Source: Burkholderiaceae bacterium
Lineage (GTDB): Bacteria > Pseudomonadota > Gammaproteobacteria > Burkholderiales > Burkholderiaceae_C
DNA: 64,000 nt
Direction of reading: 5' to 3'
Assembly: GCA_016790575.1 (NCBI GenBank)
Contig: JAEUOU010000005.1
Coordinates: 124,001-188,000 of the forward strand
Below the pieces are notes generated by a model. That model worked only from the letters and a program-made list of their open reading frames with translations, did not search any database and was not told the DNA's origin. Below, one piece after another: positions 44,202 through 51,707 of the stretch (the first letter of the stretch is position 1; each line of letters starts with the position of its first letter). The translations under genes were made by a program, and so were the position numbers.

Positions 44202-45398
44202 TCAGGCGCGCGCGCCAGCAACCGGCAACGCCGCCAGACCGACCCGCGACAGCACCTGCTCTTCGTCGGCCGGGATGACCCAGACTTCGACGCCACTGTC
44301 GTCGCCATCAATCCGCACGGCGTCGCCACCCTGGGCCGCGCCATTTCGGGCGGCATCGATACGCACTCCCAGAAAGTCCAGTGTCTGTCCCAATGCGGCC
44401 CGCAAGGGCGCGTCGTGTTGCCCGATCCCCCCCGAGAAGACCAGCAGGTCCAGGCCGCGAAGGCAGGCGACCAGCGCCCCCATTTCGCGCGTCGCACGAT
44501 GGGTGAAAAGCGCCAGGGCCTGGCGCGCGCGCGGCGATTGGCTTCCCTGCAGGCTGCGCCAGTCGCCACTCAGGCCGGACACCCCAAGCAGTCCGCTGCG
44601 CCGATACAGCAGATCGCGCAACGACGAGCCCGTCCATCCCTGATCAAGCAAATGGAGCAGGACACCCGGGTCCAGGCTGCCACTGCGGGTTGCCATCATC
44701 AGGCCGTCCAGCGCCGAGAAACCCATCGACGTGGCCACGGGCTGACCGTCGCGGACCGCGGCCATGCTGCAGCCGCTGCCCAGATGGGCCAGCAGCACGC
44801 GGCCCTGGCTGCGGACACTGCGCGCGCGCAAGCTTGCCATCAGATGCTCATACGCCAGGCCATGGAAGCCGTAACGCCGCACCCCGTGTGCGCGAACCTC
44901 CTGCGGCAGTGGCAACAGGGTCTCGACCTCCGGCAAGGCAGAGAAAAAAGCGGTATCGAACGCGGCAAACTGGATCAGCCCCGGCAGCGCCTGGCCCAAC
45001 ACTTCGACACCGCGCAGATTGGCGTTCTGGTGCAGGGGCGCCAAAGGGGCCAGCCGGCGCAGCTCGACCATGACGTCGGCATCGATACAGACCGGCCCGC
45101 TGAATCGCGCCCCGCCATGCACCACACGATGTACGGCCACCCGCAAACTGCTCAGCATGCCGCGCAGGTGCAACTGCCGCAACAGCGCCTGGAGCGCGCG
45201 TTCAAGGTCAAAGCCCACGCCGGGCAGCACCACCGGCTGCGATGCCGGCGGAACCGTCCAGCACAGCACTGCCGGCTCCGCCGTGCCACGCCCTTCGACC
45301 GACCCGCCCGCCACCCGCTGGCCGGTGTCGTCGAACAAGCCGAACTTCAGGGTCGACGAACCCGCATTGACGGTCAGAATCGCCGCTGCGCCGCCCAT
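44202..45398 (-). CDS. ackA: Acetate kinase
   Basis: 398 residues: NAGSSTLKFGLFDD at the start, HRVVHGGARFSGP, AHLGSGCSMAAVRDGQPV, and DALRLDGDD-like region at the end. It forms acetyl phosphate from acetate and ATP, or the reverse, with the phosphotransacetylase encoded immediately upstream (three-base gap). It is the last gene of the leftward five-gene operon 51205-44202 and is convergent with amiC 16 bases away. The protein is near the normal length. Confidence 0.93.
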   Translation of the reverse strand: MGGAAAILTVNAGSSTLKFGLFDDTGQRVAGGSVEGRGTAEPAVLCWTVPPASQPVVLPGVGFDLERALQALLRQLHLRGMLSSLRVAVHRVVHGGARFSGPVCIDADVMVELRRLAPLAPLHQNANLRGVEVLGQALPGLIQFAAFDTAFFSALPEVETLLPLPQEVRAHGVRRYGFHGLAYEHLMASLRARSVRSQGRVLLAHLGSGCSMAAVRDGQPVATSMGFSALDGLMMATRSGSLDPGVLLHLLDQGWTGSSLRDLLYRRSGLLGVSGLSGDWRSLQGSQSPRARQALALFTHRATREMGALVACLRGLDLLVFSGGIGQHDAPLRAALGQTLDFLGVRIDAARNGAAQGGDAVRIDGDDSGVEVWVIPADEEQVLSRVGLAALPVAGARA

Positions 45399-45401
45399 CC
45401 G

Positions 45402-46829
45402 TCAGCGTCCCACCATGCGGTTATGGTGGGCAACCAGTCGCGCCAGCACCGCTGAACCGATGCGCGACCGTGTTCCGTCGGCGCGGCTGGTCAGGGCAAT
45501 CGGAACCTTGGCGCCCAGGACGACCCCGCAGGACATGGCACCGCCCAGATACTCCAGCTGCTTGGCCAGCATGTTGCCGGACTCCAGATCAGGCACCAGC
45601 AGCACATCGGCGTCGCCGGCCACCGGCGAATCGATGCCTTTGATCCGTGCGGCCGCTTCAGAGATCGCGTTGTCGAAACCCAAAGGGCCGTCCAGCACAC
45701 CGCCGACGATCTGGCCCCGGTCGGCCATCTTGCACAGCGCCGCCGCGTCCAGCGAAGACGGCAGCGAAGGACTGACCGTCTCGACCGCCGAAAGGATCGC
45801 CACCTTGGGTCGGGTCGTGCCCAGCAGACACGAGAACTCGATCGCGTTCTGGACGATATCGACCTTCTCCGCCAGGCTGGGCGCAATGTTCAGCGCCGCG
45901 TCCGTGAGCAGCAAAGGCTTGTGATAACTGGGGACATCGAAGCGGAACACATGCGAGCAACGCCGCCCGGTGCGCAGGCCGCGTTGCGCGAGCACCGCAT
46001 GCATCAGCTCATCGGTGTGCAAGCTGCCTTTCATCAGGCTGTCGACCGCGCCGGAGGCGGCCAGCTCCGCCGCTCGCTGCGCCGCGGCATGACTGTGGGC
46101 CACGGGCTCGATCTCGCATCCGCCCAGGTCCAGCTCCGCCTCTTCGGCAACCTGGGCAATCCTTGCCGGCGGTCCAACCAGCAGCGGATGCATGATGCCC
46201 AGCCGGGCGCATTCCAGTGCACCCTGCAGGGACGCAGCGTCACACGGATGAACCACGGCGCAGCGGGTGACAGCCAGTCCGGCCGACAGCGCGATCAGCT
46301 CCTGCAGACGCGCCTGGGGGTCGAACAGCTGGATGGTCGGCGCGGCGCGCAAACGGTGGCGCACCTTGCGGGTCGGGGCAAGCACCCGGGCGCTGCCACG
46401 CAACACCTGATCGCCTTGCTGGTTGGTGATGTCGCAGTCCAGCGTGACCTGTTTGCGCTCGGCGTCCTTGGCCACCACGCGCACCGAGGTCGTCAAGGTA
46501 TCGCCTACCCGGACCGGTCGGCGGAAATGCAAGGCCTGCTCCAGGTAAATCGTCCCCGGTCCGGGAAACTGGGTGCCCAGGACGGCCGAGATCAATGATC
46601 CGCCCCACATCCCGTGGGCGATGACCCCGTGAAACGGCGTGCTTTCGGCGTAGCCGGCGTCCAGATGCGCCGGGTTGGTGTCTCCCGAAACCGCGGCAAA
46701 TGCCCGGATATCGTCCAGTGTCAGCGTTCGAACCGACCGGGCCTCCTGGCCCAGGGTGATTTCATCGAAGACGTGATTTTCAATGAGGGCGCCGTCCTGG
46801 TTCAGGACGTTTTCAAGCGGTATCGACAT
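45402..46829 (-). CDS. MaoC-like enoyl-CoA hydratase fused to phosphate acetyl/butyryltransferase
   Basis: 475 residues from MSIPLENVLNQDGALIENHV. Residues about 15-150 are a MaoC-type hot-dog hydratase (FAAVSGDTNPAHLDAGYAES, AHGMWGGSLISAVLG), with the conserved Asp and His. Residues about 165-475 are a phosphate acetyl/butyryltransferase domain (LMKGSLHTDELMHAV, LLTDAALNIAPSLAEK). It could link acyl-CoA hydration and acyl-phosphate formation, passing to AckA. A longer start at 46871 overlaps fabI by 26 bases; neither start has a clear ribosome-binding site. Such fusions beside ackA and fabI are known in beta-proteobacteria. Confidence 0.88.
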   Translation of the reverse strand: MSIPLENVLNQDGALIENHVFDEITLGQEARSVRTLTLDDIRAFAAVSGDTNPAHLDAGYAESTPFHGVIAHGMWGGSLISAVLGTQFPGPGTIYLEQALHFRRPVRVGDTLTTSVRVVAKDAERKQVTLDCDITNQQGDQVLRGSARVLAPTRKVRHRLRAAPTIQLFDPQARLQELIALSAGLAVTRCAVVHPCDAASLQGALECARLGIMHPLLVGPPARIAQVAEEAELDLGGCEIEPVAHSHAAAQRAAELAASGAVDSLMKGSLHTDELMHAVLAQRGLRTGRRCSHVFRFDVPSYHKPLLLTDAALNIAPSLAEKVDIVQNAIEFSCLLGTTRPKVAILSAVETVSPSLPSSLDAAALCKMADRGQIVGGVLDGPLGFDNAISEAAARIKGIDSPVAGDADVLLVPDLESGNMLAKQLEYLGGAMSCGVVLGAKVPIALTSRADGTRSRIGSAVLARLVAHHNRMVGR

Positions 46830-46845
46830 GGTGGGGAAGGTAGAG

Positions 46846-47607
46846 TCAAGCGATGGCGTGGTATCCGGCATCGACGTAGATCGTCTGACCGGTCATTCCG
46901 GCCGACGCGTCGCTGCACAGGAAGGCGGTGAGATGGGCGATTTCGTCGAGGCTGACCAGCCGGCCCAGGGGTGCCCGCCTGCGGGCATCGTCAAGCAGGT
47001 CATCGAAATGGTCGATGCCACTGGCGGCGCGCGTCGGAATGGGCCCGGGCGAAACCGCATGCACCCGCAAGCCCGACGGACCCAGCTCGCGGGCAAGATA
47101 GCGCACCAGCGCCTCCAGCGCGGCCTTCACCGGCCCCATCAGGCCGTAGTGGGGCACCGCCCGGCTTGCCCCCAGATAACTCATCGTGACCATGCTGCCG
47201 CCGGCCATGTGCGGCGCGCAAATGCGGGCGAGCCGGGCGAAAGAATGGCAGGAAAGGTCCATGGCCCGGGCGAACCCCGCGGCGCTGGTTTCCATGACCG
47301 GCGAATGCAGATCGACGGTGGGCGCCCAGGCAATCGAATGGACAACGAAATCCAGACCGCCCAAGGCGTCAACCGCGCCCAGAACGGCCGATTCCAGCTG
47401 GCTGTCCGACTCGACGTTGCACACCTGCAAGGGCATGTCCAGCGCCTGCGTCAGCCCGACGACGGCGGCATAGGCCCGCTCGTTGACACAGGAACCCACC
47501 AGCCGGGCCCCCTGTTGCCGGGCCAGTCGCGCGAAACCATAGGCAATGCTGTGCTCATTGGCGATCCCGAGGATCAGGCCCCGCTTGCCGTGCAGACCGG
47601 GATTCAT
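46846..47607 (-). CDS. fabI: Enoyl-[acyl-carrier-protein] reductase FabI-like
   Basis: 253 residues from MNPGLHGKRGLILGIANEHS. It is an SDR fold of the FabI type: GIANEHSIAYGFARL binds NAD, and the catalytic Tyr and Lys stand in HYGLMGPVKAAL with FabI spacing. FabI carries out the last step of each fatty-acid elongation cycle. It may be a second FabI, since the neighbours handle acyl-CoA and acetate rather than core lipid synthesis. ATG overlaps the stop of the PPDK-like gene (ATGA). Confidence 0.9.
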   Translation of the reverse strand: MNPGLHGKRGLILGIANEHSIAYGFARLARQQGARLVGSCVNERAYAAVVGLTQALDMPLQVCNVESDSQLESAVLGAVDALGGLDFVVHSIAWAPTVDLHSPVMETSAAGFARAMDLSCHSFARLARICAPHMAGGSMVTMSYLGASRAVPHYGLMGPVKAALEALVRYLARELGPSGLRVHAVSPGPIPTRAASGIDHFDDLLDDARRRAPLGRLVSLDEIAHLTAFLCSDASAGMTGQTIYVDAGYHAIA

Positions 47608-49226
47608 GGCGTGCCTTCCCGCAGGCGCGCAAGCCGCTCCTGCAGCGCAATGTCCGGAACCAGCCGTCCGGCCAGCAGGCCCGGCCACACGGTGCCGTCG
47701 TCGCCGCAGAGCGTGATCGGTGATCCTTCGTCGATCCGCATGTCGCCCAGCCAGATGCACCGTGCCGGCAGGTCGATCCGCAGTCCCTCGCAAGCCACCA
47801 GGCAGGTCTTGCCCAGCTGCCGGGCAACCACTGCCGCGTGCGAGGTTCGTGCGCCGCGCTGGGTCAGCAGACCCTGGGCAATGTCGACGGCAGCGATGTC
47901 GCGCGTTTCCGCGTCGGCGCGCACCAGCACCACCGGCGCGCCTTGCGCCACCCGGCGAATGGCGGCCTCGCTGTCGAGCACCAGTTCACCTGCGGCCACT
48001 CCGGGACTGGCCACATGGGCCTGCGCCAGCGGACGCCGCGCGTCCGAACCCGCCGGGGCATCGGCGGTGGTCTCAGTCAGCCGCATCACACCCAACTGCT
48101 CGCTATCGACGGCATCGGTACGCGAACGCGCTGTCGGGCCGTCAATCACGCCTTCGTGCAGCAGATCCAGCGCAATGCGGGCGGTTGCCAGCAGCGTGCG
48201 TTTTCCCGCGCGGGTCTGCAGCCAATACAGGCGGCCGTCTTCCACCGTGAACTCGAAATCCTGCATGTCGCCGAAAGCCTGCTCCAGCCGCTGGCAACCC
48301 TGCAGGAGTTCAGCCCAGGCATGCGGTGCGGCGGCCGCCAGGCGTTGGTGACCATGGGCATTGCGCCGGCCCGACACCACATCCTCCCCCTGCGCGTTGG
48401 CCAGGTAGTCCACCCAGGGCCGGGGATCCCCTGTCGTCGGATCGCGGGTGAAACCGACACCGGCACCGGAGCGGCCACCTGCGTTGCCAAACACCATGAC
48501 CTGCACGATCACCGCCGTGCCCAGGCTTTCGTCGATACCATGCCGCGCGCGGTAAGCCTGCGCCTTGTCGGCCTGCCAGGAGCGGTGCACCGCCAGCACC
48601 GCGCCGTGCAGCTGGTCCCGTGCGGACTGCGGGAAATCCACATTCGCCAGGCTGCGATAGATGCTACGGAAGCTGCGCGTCAGGTCGCGCAGTTCAGAAA
48701 AGTCCAGATCACTCTCCACGCGCCCGTCCAACGCCCGCGCCAGTTCCGCATCAAACGGGGCCGGATCGAGGCCCATCACGGTTTCGGCGTACGACGCCAC
48801 CAGCCGCCGGTACGAATCCCACACCAGGCGCGGGTTGCCGGTGCGCCGCAAAAGACCCGACACCGTGGCGTCGCAAAGCCCGATATTGAGCAGCGTCTCC
48901 AGCATCCCCGGCATGGACACCGGCGCGCCGGAGCGCACCGACACGATCAGCGGACGCGACGGCTCGCCCAGCACGGCGCCGGTCAGTGACTCCAGGCTGG
49001 GAAGGGTGGCCGCCAGGGCGTTGCGAATCTGCTCGGTACCAACCCGCGAATAGGCGGTGCCCAGCACCAGCGCCGCAGGCACCGGCAGACCCAGCTGGGC
49101 CATCCGGGCGAGGTTGGCCGCCTTGGCACCGACGCTGCTGCGGTCCAGGGCCTCCTCGGCGTCATCGGGACGGTCTGGCGCACCAATCAGCACCACATGG
49201 GCCGGCCAGGGTTGGGGACTGTTCAT
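47604..49226 (-). CDS. Pyruvate phosphate dikinase-like protein lacking the PEP/pyruvate barrel
   Basis: 540 residues. The ATP-grasp part (about 1-350) has VSVRSGAPVSMPGMLETLLN, GVGFTRDPTTGD, YLANAQGEDVVSGRR and DMQDFEFTVEDGRLYWLQTR, all close to PPDK. The swivelling phosphohistidine domain has His463 in RGARTSHAAVVARQLGK. The protein then ends, so the C-terminal TIM barrel of PPDK (about 340 residues), which binds pyruvate, is absent and no separate barrel gene is in the operon. The phosphoryl acceptor is unknown. Overlaps of four bases at both ends (with the DUF47-like gene and fabI) show tight coupling. Confidence 0.9.
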   Translation of the reverse strand: MNSPQPWPAHVVLIGAPDRPDDAEEALDRSSVGAKAANLARMAQLGLPVPAALVLGTAYSRVGTEQIRNALAATLPSLESLTGAVLGEPSRPLIVSVRSGAPVSMPGMLETLLNIGLCDATVSGLLRRTGNPRLVWDSYRRLVASYAETVMGLDPAPFDAELARALDGRVESDLDFSELRDLTRSFRSIYRSLANVDFPQSARDQLHGAVLAVHRSWQADKAQAYRARHGIDESLGTAVIVQVMVFGNAGGRSGAGVGFTRDPTTGDPRPWVDYLANAQGEDVVSGRRNAHGHQRLAAAAPHAWAELLQGCQRLEQAFGDMQDFEFTVEDGRLYWLQTRAGKRTLLATARIALDLLHEGVIDGPTARSRTDAVDSEQLGVMRLTETTADAPAGSDARRPLAQAHVASPGVAAGELVLDSEAAIRRVAQGAPVVLVRADAETRDIAAVDIAQGLLTQRGARTSHAAVVARQLGKTCLVACEGLRIDLPARCIWLGDMRIDEGSPITLCGDDGTVWPGLLAGRLVPDIALQERLARLREGTP

Positions 49227-51205
49227 GGGGAAAGCTCCGACTTGTCGACGACCAGCTGGCGCAAGGCATATCCTGCCGCCAACAGGGCATCGGTCGCCTT
49301 TTCAATCGTGGTGCCAATCTCGGTCACCAGCATCAGGGTGGACGGCCGGTCATGGCACAAGGCCAGCGCGGTGCGGCGGGTCTGGCGTGCCAGCTCATCG
49401 CACTGGCGCTCGGCCCGCAACATGCGCCACAGGGCCTGAAGGAAGGCCTCGCTGTCGCGCTGGTCGCTGAACTCGCTGACATGCCGGCCGATTTCAACCA
49501 CCCGCACCAGATCCTGCACCGCGGCAAAGGTGGCCTGCCCCAGCTCGGCCAGCTGGCTGCGCACCGCCGCCGGCACGGACACCGCCGGCTCGCGACAGGT
49601 CAGGTCGACCAGAAAAACCGCCTCTTCGATCGCATCGGCCACGTCATCGCTGTGTTCCAGCAGCTGCGCCAACGGCCGCCAGCGCGAATGCCGCAACGCG
49701 CGCTGGCGAACATTGGTCAGCAGTTCATCGGCGCGGTGTTCCCAGCCTTTGGCGCGGTCCACCGTCGCGGTCGTTTCGGAGGGATCCGCGCCCTGCCCCA
49801 GGCGGTCCAGCGCATCGCACAGGGCCGAGGCCAGCGCATGGGTATAGGCGGCATGGTCGGCCAGCAGGTCAAACTCGAAGGCGCGTTCGCGCAAGGTCCG
49901 CGCCAGCATCATGCGTGCCTGATCGGTCACCATCTCCCGCGGGCGTCCCTCCAGCAGCGTGCGCGCGGAAACGTCCAGCAGGTCGACCAGGAAATCGGCC
50001 GCCGGAGCCTCGCCGATCAGTTCGTCAAGCCGTTCGCCGATACGAAACAGATCCGGGTCAACCGCCTGCATGGCCGAATGCACCACCTTTTCGCCCCCCG
50101 CGAGCAGCCAGGCCATGTGGCCGCACCCCCGATCGGCGGCGCGACCGAGAATGTCCACGGCCACCGATTTGCGCACAAACCACTGCAAGCGCTTGCGAGC
50201 CCGGTTCCAGTCGACCAGAAACACCAGCTGTCCGCCGACATGCCGCAGCGCCGCGCGCAACTGCGCTTTCGATACGGCCTGCAGCCGGGCCACCCCCACC
50301 ACATACGGCCGACCCTCGTTCAAGCCGGGGGTGCGCACGGGCTCGTCAACCTGCCAGCCAAAGCCCGCCAACGCCAGCCGGTGGCGAAAGAAAGCGTGGC
50401 GCGGCGGATGCAGGTCCGAGTAGGTCACGGTGATCTCGCGCTGACGCACGGCAATCACCACCACATGAGCGTCGTTGGTGCCGATGTCGTTCTGGATCAG
50501 CAACTGCTCGCCGTCGCGGGTGACGGCCGTGTCCAGGCCCGGGTGGTCAAACTTGAGCGGCGCCGTGCCGTTGAGGCCTGCCATGAACGATTCGACCCAT
50601 TCGCGATCGGTCGCCCGGATCTGCCAGACATGGGCGCCGTCGATATCCTCGGTGGCCAGTTCGGCCGAGCGCCGGTTGATGGCCTTGTGAAGGTCCATGA
50701 CCAGCAGGTGCAGGCTGTCGCCCGCCGCGCGGTCGCCATGGGTCAGCTCCGCGATCGCCCGGACATCCAGCCCCTGGGCTGCGACCGCTTCCAGTCGCTT
50801 CAGCCGCTGCACCCAGTCGGCACTTCGCTGCGGAATGGCTGACCCGCCTTCGCGATCGGCCGGCGTGGGTGCATCGCCCAGCGGCCGTGCCATGGTGCGC
50901 AGATCCTGGGCCAGTGTCTGCAACAGCTCCTCGGAGCCTGGCACCATCAGGCGGTCGCCGTCCAGATAGGCTTTGCTCACCAGAGCGCGTGGCCAGACAA
51001 GGTCCTGCATGCCGGCCTGAGCCAGCTCATGACCCCAGTCCGGGCACGGCGATGCCGGGTCCTGCGCGTGGCTGCGCGCGGCCTGAAGCAGGCTCAGCAA
51101 AAGCTTGATCCGGTCGTTGGCCGCCAGCGCAGCCTTGATCCACGCCGGCATCAGCAAGCTGTCGGCGCCCAGGGATTCAACGGCGCGCGATTTGCTCAGT
51201 GGCAT
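49223..51205 (-). CDS. Large protein with C-terminal PhoU/DUF47-like domain
   Basis: 660 residues. I do not recognise the first 370: they are partly helical and partly beta (LLVMDLHKAINRRSAELATE, TREWVESFMAG-like region, LIQNDIGTNDAHVVVIAVRQ). The C-terminal part (about 430-650) is helical and resembles DUF47/PhoU-type regulators (RAKGWEHRADELLTNVRQ, LLEHSDDVADAIEEAVFLVD), which bind metal clusters and act with phosphate carriers. AAGGAAAA precedes the ATG. It heads the operon and is coupled to the PPDK-like gene by ATGA. It may be the acceptor or regulator of that phosphotransferase; this is inference. Confidence 0.75.
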   Translation of the reverse strand: MPLSKSRAVESLGADSLLMPAWIKAALAANDRIKLLLSLLQAARSHAQDPASPCPDWGHELAQAGMQDLVWPRALVSKAYLDGDRLMVPGSEELLQTLAQDLRTMARPLGDAPTPADREGGSAIPQRSADWVQRLKRLEAVAAQGLDVRAIAELTHGDRAAGDSLHLLVMDLHKAINRRSAELATEDIDGAHVWQIRATDREWVESFMAGLNGTAPLKFDHPGLDTAVTRDGEQLLIQNDIGTNDAHVVVIAVRQREITVTYSDLHPPRHAFFRHRLALAGFGWQVDEPVRTPGLNEGRPYVVGVARLQAVSKAQLRAALRHVGGQLVFLVDWNRARKRLQWFVRKSVAVDILGRAADRGCGHMAWLLAGGEKVVHSAMQAVDPDLFRIGERLDELIGEAPAADFLVDLLDVSARTLLEGRPREMVTDQARMMLARTLRERAFEFDLLADHAAYTHALASALCDALDRLGQGADPSETTATVDRAKGWEHRADELLTNVRQRALRHSRWRPLAQLLEHSDDVADAIEEAVFLVDLTCREPAVSVPAAVRSQLAELGQATFAAVQDLVRVVEIGRHVSEFSDQRDSEAFLQALWRMLRAERQCDELARQTRRTALALCHDRPSTLMLVTEIGTTIEKATDALLAAGYALRQLVVDKSELSP

Positions 51206-51283: not shown

Positions 51284-51334
51284 AAAGTGCCATCGTCTTG
51301 CTGCAGATCAAGACTTCCGGTCCATTTCATCCAA

Positions 51335-51383: not shown

Positions 51384-51707
51384 ATGCGCGCCGTCAAAGA
51401 AGCCCGTCAATACATCGAACGCAATCCGGCCGACCCCAGCGCGGTGGTACTCGCCAAGCTGGTGCTTGCGCTGGAGATGGAAAGTGACTTTCACGTCACC
51501 GACCTCTATCAATTGGACCAGCCGCGTTTTGACCTCGCGCTGCGTATTCTGGGTGAATGGCGCGTCGACCGGTATTACCTGGGCAAGGCCCGCCTGTTCG
51601 ACGTCTCCCTGCAAATGGCCGAGATGTACGCCACACCGCAGCCGACGGCGGCACCTGCCGCTTTCCCGGCCGAGCCGACTGCAACCGCCGCCCCGGCGGG
51701 CGTCTGA
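51384..51707 (+). CDS. Conserved-type hypothetical protein, 107 residues
   Basis: Starts ATG with GGAG seven bases upstream. The first 75 residues look folded (MRAVKEARQYIERNPADPSA, LAKLVLALEMESDFHVTDLY, FDLALRILGEWRVDRYYLGK); the tail is Ala/Pro-rich. There is no signal peptide or membrane helix. I do not recognise the family. It stands alone between divergent and downstream units, 169 bases before the cyanophycin-synthetase-like gene. A GC-rich near-palindrome around 51810-51833 may end its transcript. Confidence 0.75.
   Translation: MRAVKEARQYIERNPADPSAVVLAKLVLALEMESDFHVTDLYQLDQPRFDLALRILGEWRVDRYYLGKARLFDVSLQMAEMYATPQPTAAPAAFPAEPTATAAPAGV

Follow-up and report, generated by a model that had tools for sequence, protein, structure and literature searches.

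VadK (Rv1127c) of Mycobacterium tuberculosis establishes that a pyruvate phosphate dikinase (PPDK) can function as a histidine kinase even without the PEP/pyruvate barrel. Specifically, VadK autophosphorylates His422 with Mg-ATP, and the activity is lost in the H422A variant. Co-expression of the operon partner Rv1126c improves VadK solubility, and a 2 M NaCl wash separates the two proteins. VadK also interacts with enzymes of the methylcitrate cycle and tunes their flux (PMC13400623). Two-component dikinases are likewise known in the PPDK superfamily, the examples being HpeHI, CreHI, and phenylphosphate synthase PpsAB (PMC12167813). Our literature search found no publication joining DUF47 with a dikinase.

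Here, we analyze a gene pair in a 64,000-nucleotide stretch of DNA (the window) from a Burkholderiaceae bacterium. One gene encodes a barrel-less PPDK, called sPPDK. The other encodes the DUF47 partner. Judged by sequence, the pair looks like an uncharacterized two-protein phosphotransfer device paralleling VadK. As with VadK and Rv1126c, a barrel-less PPDK carrying ATP-grasp and phosphohistidine domains has a dedicated partner encoded alongside. The differences are twofold. First, sPPDK lies in a separate clade and scores 375 bits against the VadK family model NF004531 (PRK05878), under the curated cut-off of 456; three other DUF47-linked sPPDKs tested also fall below it (404-437), whereas the non-linked members tested score 462-688. 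Second, the sPPDK partner is 660 residues long; its central region is novel, and its end is PhoU-like. The pair comprises the following features:

47604..49226, minus strand: sPPDK, barrel-less PPDK of 540 residues, ATP-grasp plus phosphohistidine domain (Pfam, TIGR01828, alignment, tree)
47838..47840, minus strand: codon for His463, the predicted phosphorylated histidine, in a TSHAAVVAR motif (alignment to Clostridium symbiosum PPDK; invariance in 31 linked sPPDKs)
49223..49226, minus strand: ATGA overlap of the partner stop and the sPPDK start, translational coupling (sequence; identical 4-base overlap in 24/31 loci)
49223..51205, minus strand: DUF47 partner protein, 660 residues (ORF, Pfam, fold, conservation)

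The dikinase component

An earlier note, made from the sequence alone, had described a protein that keeps the ATP-grasp part and the phosphohistidine domain with His463 and ends before the PEP/pyruvate barrel. Pfam, TIGR01828, and alignment to C. symbiosum PPDK agree with that description. PPDK_N matches sPPDK at 117 bits and the PEP-utilizers mobile domain at 57 bits; Pfam finds no PEP-utilizers_C domain, i.e., no barrel, in the protein, which stops at 540 residues, ahead of where the barrel would begin. Relative to full-length PPDK (the 865-position TIGR01828 model), sPPDK corresponds to the first two domains (positions 15-503), with ~40% identity and identical catalytic residues, but it lacks the barrel, and its score of 468 bits is under the model cut-off of 843.

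Seven sPPDK residues, Lys35, Arg98, Asp323, Glu325, Gln337, Arg339, and His463, align with C. symbiosum PPDK Lys22, Arg92, Asp321, Glu323, Gln335, Arg337, and His455, the established ATP-site and phosphohistidine residues of that enzyme (cited in part in PMC13400623). All seven are conserved in 22/22 DUF47-linked sPPDKs compared, so the loss of catalytic residues in homologs, which the earlier note said would speak against its proposal, is not what the family displays. The His463 equivalent is invariant across 31/31 DUF47-linked sPPDKs. Arg460, near His463, was considered as a signature of the clade and discarded, because Lys or Arg occurs there in other PPDKs too.

The two-component dikinases HpeHI, CreHI, and PpsAB resemble the pair in that a dikinase is divided between two proteins and employs a phosphohistidine intermediate. 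However, their ATP-grasp domain stands alone, and their histidine domain is joined to the substrate domain. By contrast, sPPDK retains both PPDK domains together (Pfam places the ATP-grasp and histidine domains in the one protein, rather than on separate proteins as in HpeHI and PpsAB), and its partner possesses no known substrate domain.

The pair as a genetic unit

The sPPDK gene lies directly 3' of the DUF47 gene in 31/31 loci found. These loci are the window, 13 from the genome collection, 3 from family relatives, 9 from the order, 3 from the phylum, and 2 intact plasmid loci; 399 genomes of the order and 398 genomes of the phylum were scanned. At all 31, the sPPDK start falls within -17 to +19 bases of the partner stop, and the four-base overlap already noted in the window, ATGA, recurs in 24. 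Because adjacency holds at 31/31 loci, the two genes are a real unit rather than chance neighbors. The pair is rare (10/399 genomes of the order). Among 200 genomes of the order, members of the sPPDK clade occur only where the genome also encodes the DUF47 partner.

On a maximum-likelihood tree, a branch supported at 100/100 separates the 31 linked sPPDKs from full-length PPDKs and from VadK-type NF004531 sequences (Rv1127c itself is not included in the tree). Barrel-less PPDKs are not a single group on this tree: to account for the five other short proteins, four label changes are required, suggesting that the barrel was lost repeatedly. The window pair appears to be a second, independent barrel-less PPDK lineage with an obligate partner. 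Linkage, catalytic conservation, and membership in a single clade together lend support to the phosphotransfer pair proposed in the earlier note, in which the ATP/His half is intact and the partner is a dedicated one.

Two minor observations concern related loci. A Methylocella tundrae plasmid exists as two deposited assemblies (L027 and L026), one with the pair intact and the other with several short ORFs in its place, probably owing to sequencing error. In addition, two PPDK-like proteins of 835-844 residues (L028:3953-6460 and L031:4926-7460) possess C-terminal regions of ~300 residues that by eye resemble a degenerate PEP barrel; Pfam, run on L028, does not recognize this region.

The DUF47 partner

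The partner is divided as follows:

50651..51205, minus strand: residues 1-185, helical N-terminal part ending in a DSLHLLVMDLH motif (model, conservation, profile comparison)
50675..50719, minus strand: residues 163-177, motif D-S-x-H-x3-M-x-L-H common to VadK-type partners (conservation, pattern search)
49934..50650, minus strand: residues 186-424, alpha/beta plus helical region with HPG, QNDIGTxDAHV, YxDxH, and DWNRAR motifs and no PDB relative (model, conservation, fold search)
49238..49933, minus strand: residues 425-656, PhoU/DUF47-like helical bundle (Pfam, predicted fold)

The ORF, the Pfam result, and the predicted fold uphold the earlier assignment of a PhoU/DUF47-like end to the 660-residue upstream product. 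PhoU_div/DUF47 (PF01865) matches residues 445-652 with a score of 33 bits, above the 24.4-bit cut-off, and the modeled C-terminal domain resembles the PhoU-like structures 3l39, 2iiu, and 2olt (TM ~0.8). Both results pertain to the C-terminal third of the partner only. Thus, the partner shares its C-terminal helical bundle with PhoU_div/DUF47 proteins (PF01865, TIGR00153) but differs in possessing 440 additional N-terminal residues and the linkage to sPPDK. No phosphate transporter gene adjoins the partner gene within the window.

The N-terminal region, described earlier as unrecognized, remains so after structure prediction. Its 425 residues are predicted with fair confidence to fold as a unit (mean pLDDT 79, pTM 0.71), and a fold search with this model returns no PDB match at E < 0.001. 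A known substrate domain was considered and rejected, as the PDB yields nothing by profile or by fold; a YbjN-like match was set aside as weak (probability 0.57, TM 0.38). Conservation in the partner is highest in this region, a point missed in the earlier note. Across 31 partners, 67 residues are invariant, mostly within 160-370, N-terminal to the PhoU end. They include histidines 166, 173, 221, 247, 266, and 363 and the motifs HPG, QNDIG, Y-x-D-x-H, and DWNxAR. The analysis brings to light a conserved 240-residue partner region that has no known structural relative. One partner (L053, 8026-10083) carries an insertion of ~40 residues within the conserved central region.

A motif common to two partner types

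NF004531-type short PPDKs are directly adjoined by a ~200-residue protein in Rhodococcus, Streptomyces, Novosphingobium, Diaphorobacter, M. avium, and M. branderi. On the M. avium and M. branderi plasmids, the barrel-less PPDK is followed by a ~200-residue protein ending DSYHTVWFELH. These VadK-type partners are mutually related, and their C-termini read DSYHTVWFELHEDL or near variants. Rv1126c probably belongs to this family, judging by the order and size of the genes in other mycobacteria. In three genomes (L084-L086), the ~200-residue domain is fused to the PPDK C-terminus. A phylum scan for the ~200-residue partner gave no match, with a query that recovered the four genomes known to carry the protein; therefore, this partner is rare.

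BLAST detects no similarity between the ~200-residue VadK-type partners and the DUF47 partner. Nonetheless, the DUF47 partner carries DSLHLLVMDLHKAI at residues 163-176, with the motif D-[ST]-x-H-x3-M-x-L-H. Among 1.04 million residues of fetched open frames, the pattern D[ST]xHxxx[FM]x[LFMV]H, which was derived from the two partner types, is confined to them. Profile comparison (hhalign) of the DUF47 partner N-terminus with the VadK-type partner gives P = 0.011, a result due chiefly to a single 11-residue motif. The partner-profile score is matched by about 1 in 300 column shuffles and by 17/300 shuffles of 11-column blocks, which can retain the whole motif. A global alignment of both partner types also brings an N-x10-Q pair into register. 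These results are suggestive of homology between the DUF47 partner and the VadK-type partner (P about 0.003-0.01). They likewise suggest that the motif, found in the partners of both lineages, could be a shared docking or acceptor segment.

Operon neighbors and a possible oxygen input

Downstream and upstream of the pair lie the following features:

46846..47607, minus strand: FabI-like enoyl reductase, 4-base overlap with sPPDK (ORF, Pfam, profile match)
45402..46871, minus strand: MaoC-phosphotransacetylase fusion, MaoC-Pta (ORF, Pfam, profile match)
44202..45398, minus strand: AckA, acetate/propionate kinase family (ORF, Pfam, profile match)
51298..51311, plus strand: TTGCTGCAGATCAA, an FNR/ANR-like box with a single mismatch, located ~100 bases ahead of the partner gene (motif search; the genome encodes an FNR-type regulator)

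As the earlier note had stated, the pair shares a same-strand run with FabI, MaoC-Pta, and AckA in the window, the genes overlapping or lying few bases apart. Its further suggestion that the acceptor may be linked to acetate or acyl metabolism was an over-reading. MaoC-Pta follows the pair in 10/31 loci. In nine Hydrogenophaga/Tepidimonas-type loci, it comes directly after the pair, and FabI and AckA lie nearby on the opposite strand where the contig extends that far. One additional locus (L059:6370-13644) encodes phosphoketolase (XFP), AckA, the DUF47 partner, and sPPDK in one same-strand run. In the remaining loci, the neighbors vary. Thus, the acetate link is lineage-specific (about 11/31 loci). 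A common neighborhood was rejected as a clue to the substrate, as any given Pfam family is present in at most 2 of the 92 flanking proteins scanned, and polyphosphate genes near the pair (PPK1 in L003, Ppx in L051) were too few to serve as one.

In 6/31 loci, the region upstream of the pair contains an FNR-like box with no more than one mismatch, three of these boxes being perfect, compared to 1.4% of random windows (P about 4e-6, in a post hoc test). The box is missing at most Hydrogenophaga loci. The source genome encodes an FNR-type regulator with an N-terminal cysteine cluster. Together, the boxes and the regulator make a low-oxygen role for the pair plausible. A small ORF without a Pfam family (window 51384-51707, plus strand) is divergent from the DUF47 gene, and its relatives adjoin the pair in several Hydrogenophaga loci.

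Proposed mechanism and alternatives

Our favored reading, which we hold to be probable though far from secure, is that the first half of PPDK has become the basis of a phosphotransfer module of two proteins, with phosphate moving to or through the DUF47 partner. ATP would bind in the sPPDK ATP-grasp domain, and sPPDK would phosphorylate its own His463. This autophosphorylation is likely because the ATP-site and His residues are intact and because VadK, a related but separate protein, phosphorylates its own histidine and was recovered together with the product of its operon neighbor. Because the barrel is missing, PEP synthesis should be beyond sPPDK. The phosphoryl group would then pass to, or via, the obligate partner, whose N-terminal DSxH...LH segment probably docks on the phosphohistidine domain. 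The acceptor may be an invariant His or Asp of the partner or a small ligand in its central domain. The probable role of the PhoU-like end, a guess prompted by the fold, is sensing of phosphate or energy state, or oligomerization. In the source genome, the module would be co-expressed with FabI, MaoC-Pta, and AckA, probably under FNR control, and would likely couple the ATP/AMP/PPi state to acyl-phosphate and acetate metabolism under oxygen shortage. The prediction is that the phosphate's next station is the partner rather than the lost barrel, and the residues singled out are sPPDK His463 and partner His166 and His173.

A different possibility, which we judge unlikely but worth serious consideration, is that the pair is a small-molecule dikinase. 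The central domain of the partner would hold a metabolite that is phosphorylated by the swiveling histidine, as in HpeHI, phenylphosphate synthase, and rifampin phosphotransferase. The superfamily's two-component dikinases (PMC12167813) provide precedent, and the invariant polar residues of the central region form an enzyme-like set. Nevertheless, by profile and by fold the region is unlike any known substrate domain, that of rifampin phosphotransferase included, and the variable neighbors indicate no single substrate.

Alternatively, and in our view doubtfully, phospho-sPPDK could act as a VadK-like regulatory kinase that binds and tunes Pta, AckA, or FabI, with the DUF47 protein functioning as a regulator or chaperone, not as the acceptor. 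The interaction of VadK with methylcitrate-cycle enzymes and its tuning of their flux (PMC13400623) favor this idea, as do the metabolic genes downstream in the window's operon. Yet those metabolic neighbors change between lineages while the DUF47 partner is constant, and the acceptor of VadK itself is likewise unproven.

It is highly improbable that a full-length PPDK or PpsA supplies the barrel in trans, making the pair an odd PEP-forming enzyme. The source genome does encode both of these barrel-containing proteins, but sPPDK forms a separate clade with its own partner, and two genomes (G094 and G215) hold the pair with no full-length PPDK detected; the barrel gene that, according to the earlier note, might always co-occur with the pair is therefore not a constant companion. 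Finally, a PTS-like relay in which sPPDK takes the place of enzyme I and phosphorylates HPr can be dismissed almost entirely: the phosphohistidine domain does have kinship with enzyme I (a weak PTS_I match), but the source genome (98% complete) encodes neither HPr nor enzyme I or its barrel, which excludes HPr as the acceptor there as far as the genome is complete.

Returning to phosphotransfer through the partner, we offer a broader and more tentative speculation, one we regard as rather less than an even proposition. Barrel-less PPDKs could constitute a general histidine phosphotransfer class whose members have, on more than one occasion, exchanged the PEP barrel for a dedicated partner bearing a DSxH...LH acceptor or docking segment, the window pair representing an unknown branch with a previously unseen partner fold. 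If so, the partner would come in several forms: a small separate protein, a C-terminal fusion, or, as in the window, a segment that shares its chain with a new central domain and with a PhoU-like sensor.

Other gene arrangements were observed around VadK-type partners. Plasmids of Mycobacterium, Diaphorobacter, and Rhodococcus carry trios encoding a barrel-less PPDK, a ~200-residue DSxH partner, and a ~500-570-residue "PEP-utilizing enzyme" (L115, 1865-7230; L116, 1693-5519; L119, 1610-5494; L120, 1604-5650), candidates for a three-protein small-molecule kinase. At two further loci (L113, L114), an AMP-binding protein, a DSxH partner, a short PPDK, a biotin/lipoyl protein, and a biotin carboxylase are encoded in one run, possibly specifying a phosphorylation-plus-carboxylation pathway.
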